40,416 nt of DNA from an uncultured Desulfosporosinus sp. Lineage in GTDB: Bacteria > Bacillota > Desulfitobacteriia > Desulfitobacteriales > Desulfitobacteriaceae. Below are positions 2,213 through 35,493 of this stretch, piece by piece (position 1 is the stretch's first letter; each line of letters begins with the position of its first letter). The position numbers and the translations under genes were made by a program. The DNA lies in the NCBI GenBank assembly GCA_927405585.1, contig CAKMJS010000133.1:1-40416 (forward strand), written 5' to 3'. A model generated the notes under the pieces. It saw nothing but the letters and a program-made list of their open reading frames with translations, ran no database searches and had not been told where the DNA came from.

Positions 2213-2243
2213 CCTTTGCTCCTCCTTTCATGCGATGCGCGAG

Positions 2244-2400
2244 GTTCGATGCTCGAGGCTCGAATAGAGACGTTCGTCTCGAACGTTTCAAATGTCCATG
2301 AATTACCAGAATTAATACCCCCAAAAAAGTAAAACTCCAAGCGTATGTACTATTAAGACCAAACTCTATTTTTTCGAGTCGAGGTTCGAAGTTCGACACG
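2244..2400. repeat. TTCGANN heptamer clusters in the fliE-fliF spacer
   Basis: Two short clusters of 7-bp units occupy the spacer: 2244-2264 (TTCGATG, CTCGAGG, CTCGAAT) and about 2377-2400 (GTCGAGG, TTCGAAG, TTCGACA). Related units recur at 4926-4957 and 5093-5118. I see no gene between them. Confidence 0.7.
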
Positions 2401-4914: not shown

Positions 4915-4925
4915 CCTCCCATTTT

Positions 4926-4957
4926 TCGATGTACGAAGTTCGATGCTCGATGTTCGA
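4926..4957. repeat. TTCGANN heptamer cluster
   Basis: Five 7-bp units (TTCGATG, TACGAAG, TTCGATG, CTCGATG, TTCGAAT) lie directly upstream of the cheW ribosome site. A complementary-orientation cluster is at 5093-5118 (ACTTCGA, GCATCGA, ACCTCGG, CCTCGCT) at the cheA 3' end. Confidence 0.75.
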
Positions 4958-5118
4958 ATTGAATAAAAACTTGCAAGTATTTAGGTTATTAAAATAATTT
5001 TAATTAGAATGAAGGTTTGAAGCGCGAAAGGAATAAATCGAGGAATGAATTCAAATCTTTTTACAAACTATAAGTTTTTATTCTTACTTGAACTTCGAGC
5101 ATCGAACCTCGGCCTCGC

Positions 5119-13970: not shown

Positions 13971-14090
13971 CCAACGGGGTCGTACCCTAACACAATTCAC
14001 CCTAACACAATTCACCCTAACACAATTTACACACAATTCACTAGGACCATGAAACAACCTTCAGCACTGCTTCCTAGAACCTTACGTTAC
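13971..14090. repeat. Dispersed repeat, copy 1, with 15-bp CCCTAACACAATTCA tandem units
   Basis: 120 bp. It opens with CCAACGGGGTCGTA, continues with two CCCTAACACAATTCA units and one variant, then TTACACACAATTCACTAGGA, and ends CCTTACGTTAC. Copy 2 is at 14792-14893. Together they bracket the lipoprotein gene in direct orientation. Confidence 0.85.
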
Positions 14091-14791: not shown

Positions 14792-14893
14792 CCAACGGGG
14801 TCGTACCCTAATACATACCCTAACACAATTTACACACAATTCACTAGGACCATGAAACGACCTGCAGCACAGCTTCCTGGAACCTTACGTTAC
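14792..14893. repeat. Dispersed repeat, copy 2
   Basis: 102 bp, the same block as 13971-14090 but with one fewer 15-bp unit and a degenerate CCCTAATACATA unit. The right parts (ACACACAATTCACTAGGACC to CCTTACGTTAC) differ from copy 1 at only a few positions. Confidence 0.85.
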
Positions 14894-27748: not shown

Positions 27749-27774
27749 AATTTTACACAGTTTTCGTTAAGTAA

Positions 27775-28214
27775 GCGAAGTCAATCTATAAGCCGAGTTC
27801 TGTCCCTCCATATGGAGGTGATGATCATCTATCTCGAACCGCCGTTACCGACGGCCTCTAGCGACCTTACCCGGGAACAAAAACGGGCCGTTCATAGTTC
27901 CCCTATTCAGTCTTGCTCCAAGTGGGGTTTACATGGCCAGCCAGTCACCTGGCTGCCGGTGAGCTCTTACCTCGCCTTTCCACCCTTACCTACTCGGAAG
28001 TCAGTCGTCGGAAGCCAGAAGTCGGATTAGTACCAACTTATTCTGACCTCAGGCCTCTGACAACTGACCTCCGTTATCGGCGGTATCTCTCTGTTGCACT
28101 TTCCTTAGGGTTTCCCCTACTGGGTGTTACCCAGCACCTTGCCCTGTGGAGCTCGGACTTTCCTCAGAGGCGACCTTTCGGTCCTTACCCCCGCGATCAT
28201 CTGATTGGCTTCGC
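27775..28214 (-). ncRNA. rnpB: RNase P RNA, bacterial type A (rnpB)
   Basis: The catalytic RNA that trims tRNA 5' ends. The minus strand shows GCGAAGCCAATC at the 5' end pairing with GATTGACTTCGC at the 3' end (P1), GAGGAAAGTCCGAGCTCC, TAGGGGAAACCCTAAGGAAAG, GGTAAGGGTGGAAAGGCGAG and GACAGAACTCGGCTTATAGA, the universal core blocks. It is about 440 nt, longer than usual. The excess lies in P12, which is about 88 nt and built from 7-bp repeat units. A promoter is visible directly upstream. Confidence 0.96.
27991..28078 (-). repeat. Heptamer-built P12 extension inside rnpB
   Basis: On the plus strand the units GTCGGAA, GTCAGTC, GTCGGAA, GCCAGAA, GTCGGAT are followed by the complementary half TTCTGACCTCAGGCCTCTGA, then CAACTGACCTCCG. 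In RNA the halves pair (CGGAGGTCAGTTGTC with GACGACTGACTTCCG), so the repeat extends helix P12 without breaking the core. Confidence 0.85.
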
Positions 28215-35358: not shown

Positions 35359-35493
35359 CTGTTTCGATTTACAAGATTTATGTTCACGAGAAGTAAATGC
35401 TTTAGACTTTGACCACTAACTTCAGACCCGTAATATTCCCTTAGAAATACTAACGTTTTCTGGCCTCTGGCTTCTGACAGCCTACATCTGAAG

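Follow-up and report, generated by a model that had tools for sequence, protein, structure and literature searches.

A heptamer-repeat array in the P12 helix of Desulfosporosinus RNase P RNA

Results

An intact class A RNase P RNA gene carries an enlarged P12

The window analyzed here is a 40,416-nt stretch of DNA from an uncultured Desulfosporosinus sp. (contig CAKMJS010000133.1). Its minus strand holds a complete rnpB gene of 440 nt (27773..28212, read from 28212 to 27773) that specifies a class A RNase P RNA. The gene matches the class A covariance model RF00010 from position 1 to 367 with a score of 295.2 bits (E 9.8e-96; the gathering score is 100), and a genome search identified it as the only rnpB copy. 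The class B RNase P RNA model reached only 53 bits, below its cut-off. The RF00010 alignment opens a 72-nt insertion at P12, while the remainder of the RNA, including the conserved core, aligns.

The P12 body occupies exactly 88 nt (27991..28078, minus strand) between the motifs ACCGCC and GGTAAGG. It consists of two inverted arrays of heptamers of the form RGYCRGA, four to five per arm, with the same unit present in both arms in inverted order. The 5' arm (28042..28073, minus strand) reads GGAGGTC AGTTGTC AGAGGCC TGAGGTC AGAATAA on the rnpB strand from 28072 to 28038, its last unit entering the loop. The 3' arm (27995..28026, minus strand) appears on the plus strand as GGAAGTC AGTCGTC GGAAGCC AGAAGTC GGATTAG (27996-28030), the last of these units belonging to the arm only in part (GGAT...). 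Between the arms lies the apical loop region (28027..28041, minus strand), and the 5' side of a basal internal loop (GATAA; 28074..28078, minus strand) is common to truncated members of the genus, to genus g12 of the same family and to G037 from another family. The arms are predicted to form an imperfect helix of ~32 bp in which single A·C mismatches recur at a spacing of 7 nt.

Folded as a single sequence, P12 forms one long hairpin of -53.9 kcal/mol (z = -6.06) that none of 200 shuffles equaled. We then measured self-similarity against a null of paired-column shuffles, which keep the base pairs of the hairpin. P12 matched itself at 14 of 21 positions at lag 7 (p = 0.0014) and at 16 of 21 at lag 14 (p < 0.0001), and lags 5, 6, 8, 9 and 10 were not significant in the same test. 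The unit is degenerate: TRF detects just 2.4 copies of a 14-mer with a modest score. Within rnpB, the heptameric tandem units are confined to P12, as judged by their period of 7 and the RF00010 alignment. A preliminary description of this DNA had placed an enlarged P12 at 27991-28078 in an otherwise intact RNase P RNA and had proposed that two halves made of heptamers pair into a long helix. The boundaries and the core agree with the coordinates and the model match given above. The enlargement is evident from the ACAGA-to-GGGU segment, which measures 115 nt here versus the 35-47 nt common in relatives of the same order, and the long helix from the fold and lag-7 statistics.

The heptamer belongs to a dispersed repeat family

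Exact matches to the degenerate pattern GYCRGARGYCRGARGYCRG occur 7 times in the genome that contains the window (rnpB counted) and 19 times in G013. The reversed pattern, used as a control, had 0 matches throughout the genus. The P12 heptamer thus belongs to a genome-dispersed repeat family. A second array of the same unit (GTCAGAA GCCAGAG GCCAG; 35460..35478, minus strand) lies within the window in the spacer that separates two tRNA genes. Some dispersed copies form hairpins whose arms are inverted heptamers (L113, L116, L124, L129) and others are single arrays; a nearby inverted partner array was present at only 9 of 48 array sites, and these 9 include two that are rnpB and two that are both arms of one site. 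Several copies adjoin stable RNA genes, such as the tRNA spacer of the window and the 3' side of apparent 23S rRNA in G015. In that complete genome a heptamer array directly follows the apparent 23S rRNA 3' end in four places (L118 570-620, L119 532-580, L120 620-670 and L122 598-640), and these arrays may be part of an rRNA processing stem.

A survey of 7-nt periodicity covered 285 kb of the window's own genome and 400 kb of G006. Period 7 is the commonest short period in the noncoding DNA of the former, with 9 clusters after removal of two N runs, compared to 0-2 at lags not divisible by 7. Most of this signal comes from a second degenerate heptamer family, TCGNNNN (for example TCGTGCATCGTGCTTCGTG and TTCGATGCTCGATGTTCGA), which occupies spacers of a flagellar/chemotaxis cluster (window positions 2233-2263, 2436-2510, 4925-4957 and 5092-5118) and recurs elsewhere in the genome. 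We ruled this family out as the origin of the P12 unit, since the P12 units fit GYCRGAR and not TCGANNC. Separately, spacers near the flagellin gene (13984-14027 and 14804-14827) contain 2.9 copies of a perfect 15-mer, ACCCTAACACAATTC, and a related TACCCTAACACA pair.

P12 varies among close relatives that have near-identical cores

Among the 25 members of the genus with a readable rnpB, we scored P12 as an array in 15, as truncated at the tip in 3 (G005, G006 and G021) and as an unrelated short hairpin in 7. Single-unit steps were found in G447, which has gained exactly 7 nt, and G448, which lacks exactly 7 nt, equivalent in each case to one heptamer in one arm. Larger changes separate other species: in G005 a single clean deletion has removed 59 nt of the P12 hairpin tip relative to G010, the deletion is found in G006 as well, and P12 of G021 is also truncated. 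The cores on either side of such differences are nearly identical. Core identity is 99.4% between G007 (short P12) and G014 (array), 97.9% between G011 (short P12) and G447 (array), and 99.7% between G010 (array) and each of the stubs G005 and G006. Judged from these sequences, the P12 changes between sister pairs are recent. Mapped on trees, changes between array and no array number at least 8 with DnaG and at least 9 with the rnpB core. Within the family, Paradesulfitobacterium ferrireducens (G455) has the array and its congener G456 does not.

Full-length members mostly agree in the order and number of their heptamers, which vary less than free slippage predicts. Because of this conservation, the array appears to be homologous within the genus and repeatedly lost, rather than freely slipping. 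A single heptamer-like unit is present in the corresponding stem of the short P12s of genus g12 and of G037 (CGGARGTYRGTC...GACTGACTTYCG), and it is plausible that the unit CGGARGTYRGTC is the seed of the array.

The preliminary description had read the locus as a Firmicute rnpB whose P12 is expanded by STRR-type heptamers, had suggested aligning rnpB from relatives, and had named an identical P12 in all of them as a finding that would speak against it. The alignment revealed a constant core and a variable P12, including the one-heptamer steps in G447 and G448, with arrays, truncated forms and short hairpins side by side in the genus. Together with the period of 7 and the dispersed unit, these findings bear the reading out: as in an STRR family, the unit number differs between relatives whose core is constant.

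Two of the 15 array members depart from the rest. G003 is slightly shorter, and rnpB of G001 (L035) carries a further 137 nt in the P12 apical loop, with a core 99.7% identical to that of G012. This insertion ends in a dispersed motif, CCAGCVAAGTTTTCTTT, that is also present in L069, L125, L308 and L320, and an Rfam search of the insertion returned rnpB and no other family. In the same order, G026, G028, G453 and G454 have long P12 helices without any heptamer, indicating that P12 also lengthens by other routes.

P12 and core identities disagree between some lineages

G017 and G018 share 98.5% of the core and 80% of P12. The reverse holds for G455 and G445, which belong to different genera: their P12 identity (94.2%) exceeds their core identity (91.3%). 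The DnaG of G455 is only ~60% identical to that of the window. Since P12 and core identities disagree in both pairs, P12 modules may have been swapped, and exchange between lineages by homologous recombination via the conserved flanks would be the simplest account.

P12 pairing extends across species, with weak covariation

An alignment of P12 from 14 species contains 33 aligned pairs, in which 87.4% of cells are paired, compared to 25-47% after the 3' partners are shifted. Covariation was weak: both sides changed in 5 pairs, against a shuffle mean of 4.1, and the score was reached by 2 of 500 shuffles. We had expected a strong strand-specific excess of G·U as proof of RNA-level selection, and it was seen only weakly; G·U occupies 54 cells versus 37 for A·C, a moderate excess, and the recurrent A·C mismatches fall on degenerate positions of the unit. 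Pairing, covariation and G·U excess hint weakly at RNA-level selection on the distal P12 helix and do not prove it.

Heptameric P12s recur in other Clostridia

We gathered P12s from other Clostridia by pattern scans of genomes and by group searches. Other Clostridia were not matched by a unit pattern that requires a pyrimidine at position 4, and the unit scan described below used a wider one. In a first set of 36 long P12s from outside Desulfosporosinus and Paradesulfitobacterium, tested at lags 4-12 with p <= 0.01, lag 7 was significant in 7 and no other lag in any. A second set of 35, which overlaps the first and was held to p < 0.005, had 10 significant at lag 7 and again none at the other lags from 4 to 12. 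These P12s come from Herbivorax, Fervidicella, Acetivibrionales and Clostridiales genomes and metagenome bins, among others. The heptameric P12 of Desulfosporosinus is thus not isolated and recurs in several orders of Clostridia. Those of Acetivibrionales may share one origin.

The units in these genomes are related (RGANRTY), and in most cases the purine-rich RGANRTY strand forms the 5' arm. A pattern scan of seven of the genomes located RGANRTY-type units outside rnpB in four, namely Herbivorax (G040), Fervidicella (G042), G043 and G045, and none outside rnpB in G041, G044 and G229.

Discussion

We consider it highly probable that P12 was lengthened by an inverted pair of heptamer arrays (RGYCRGA) of a dispersed family that grew by slippage, was tolerated as a nearly neutral change and is probably retained as an inert long P12. 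Growth would have started from a short ancestral stem containing a heptamer-like sequence, as in the short P12s described above, and proceeded as replication slipped and switched templates at a hairpin in the DNA, leaving the same unit in both arms in inverted order. With 7-nt redundancy, one arm could gain or lose a unit and then re-pair in a shifted register. Because the distal end of P12 lies away from the catalytic core, its length would be nearly neutral. Arrays would be trimmed through deletion of the hairpin tip and could be exchanged between lineages by homologous recombination via the nearly identical core on either side. The lengthened helix is probably kept in the mature RNA, unneeded for catalysis; the existence of sister species with a short P12 makes it likely that the array is dispensable. 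Counting against this reading are the weak covariation and modest G·U excess in P12, a heptamer order steadier than free slippage would leave, and the small share of array sites (9 of 48) with an inverted partner close by.

Vioque is said to have described, in 1997, STRR sequences at P12 of cyanobacterial rnpB that were dispensable in vitro and differed between strains. By analogy, we regard the Desulfosporosinus array as the same kind of extension: in both, P12 is lengthened by short tandem repeats from a dispersed family, related strains differ and the core is unchanged. Unlike the cyanobacterial case, the one described here belongs to another phylum and has another unit (RGYCRGA), from which we take it that the two are presumably independent. 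A further difference is that the sequences here show traces of a short seed, of tip deletions and of what looks like module swapping, and that such P12s recur in several orders of Clostridia. A passage of PMC2858038 calls P12 sometimes dispensable and cites for it the paper on STRR sequences in RNase P RNA of heterocyst-forming cyanobacteria (Vioque 1997, Nucleic Acids Res 25:3471, PMID 9254706). We found no report of a heptameric P12 in Clostridia among the open-licence papers searched.

A broader reading is that the class A P12 is a recurrent acceptor for heptamers across Bacillota, and in cyanobacteria, whose shared grammar (RGANRTY, on the 5' arm) stems from one common mechanism of amplification, as yet undescribed, or from a shared property under selection, and not from independent neutral slippage. 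We hold this to be unlikely.

An alternative at the RNA level, in our judgment quite improbable, is that the array acts as an intervening sequence. RNase III would then cleave the extended P12, leaving a mature RNase P RNA that works in two pieces, like fragmented 23S rRNAs. A long uninterrupted RNA helix is a plausible RNase III substrate. Pairing is very long and uninterrupted in some members (~29 consecutive pairs in G012), and G001 tolerates its 137 additional nt in the loop. Mismatches, however, break the helix into stretches of ~6-15 bp in most members, the present one among them.

We similarly doubt that a mobile palindromic element jumped into P12, as opposed to the local growth of a repeat. 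REP/REPIN and Rickettsia palindromic elements (RPE) are small, dispersed hairpins that can occur inside functional genes, and the P12 heptamer is likewise dispersed, with some copies forming hairpins with inverted arms; furthermore, P12 of G001 contains a true insertion that ends in another dispersed motif. Unlike such elements, the P12 insert lacks fixed boundaries and a second full copy. The dispersed copies have the heptamer in common but no fixed flanks or length, a 101-bp query with the insert matched only itself in the genome (best other matches 14-24 nt, E 4.8), and the short P12s of relatives already contain one heptamer-like unit.

Selection for a function, with the array acting as a protein-binding platform, a stabilizer of the S-domain or a regulator of RNase P, would fit the conserved order and number of heptamers in most full-length members, the 91-94% identity of P12 arrays between two genera and the purine-rich 5' arm in most of the Clostridia cases. 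We nevertheless think it very unlikely, given sister species with cores 97.9-99.7% identical in which the array is absent or a stub, the at least 8-9 state changes on the trees, the tolerated A·C mismatches, the weak covariation and the presence of the heptamer in unrelated spacers. Finally, that the array is chance or an ordinary long P12 without a real repeat, as the low TRF copy number, the repeat-free long P12s of G026, G028 and G454 and the subthreshold lag-7 value of D. acididurans (G014; p 0.079) might suggest, is scarcely conceivable in view of the lag-7 and lag-14 significance of this P12, of lag 7 as the best lag (p < 0.003) in 10 of 11 relatives tested and of a dispersed degenerate heptamer whose control had no match.

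The invasion of an essential ribozyme by repeats is no cyanobacterial oddity, since heptamers lengthen P12 in several orders of Clostridia. The genus offers a natural experiment in the tolerance of an essential RNA to growing repeats, lost hairpin tips and exchanged domains, with long, stub and unrelated P12s on cores that are 98-99.7% identical. It also provides a setting for asking why a 7-nt period is favored in bacterial noncoding DNA. Heptamers are over-represented in bacteria, and slippage has been proposed as the cause (PMC4692102). The heptamers of Nostoc (GGGGATT) and Xanthomonas (GGGAATC; PMC4692102) and of Beggiatoaceae (TAACTGA; PMC4679880) resemble the present family as degenerate 7-nt units in many, mostly intergenic copies, with unit numbers that vary between relatives and some inverted arrangements. 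They differ in the unit, and in Desulfosporosinus one copy lies inside an essential ribozyme; a term search of both texts found no mention of rnpB, Firmicutes or Clostridia. In IMG/VR viral contigs (from L177 on), (GYCRGAR)n arrays of at least 3 units are common among the matches listed, with a GC content of 41-69% where inspected, and the GYCRGAR grammar thus appears to be widespread in prokaryotic DNA.
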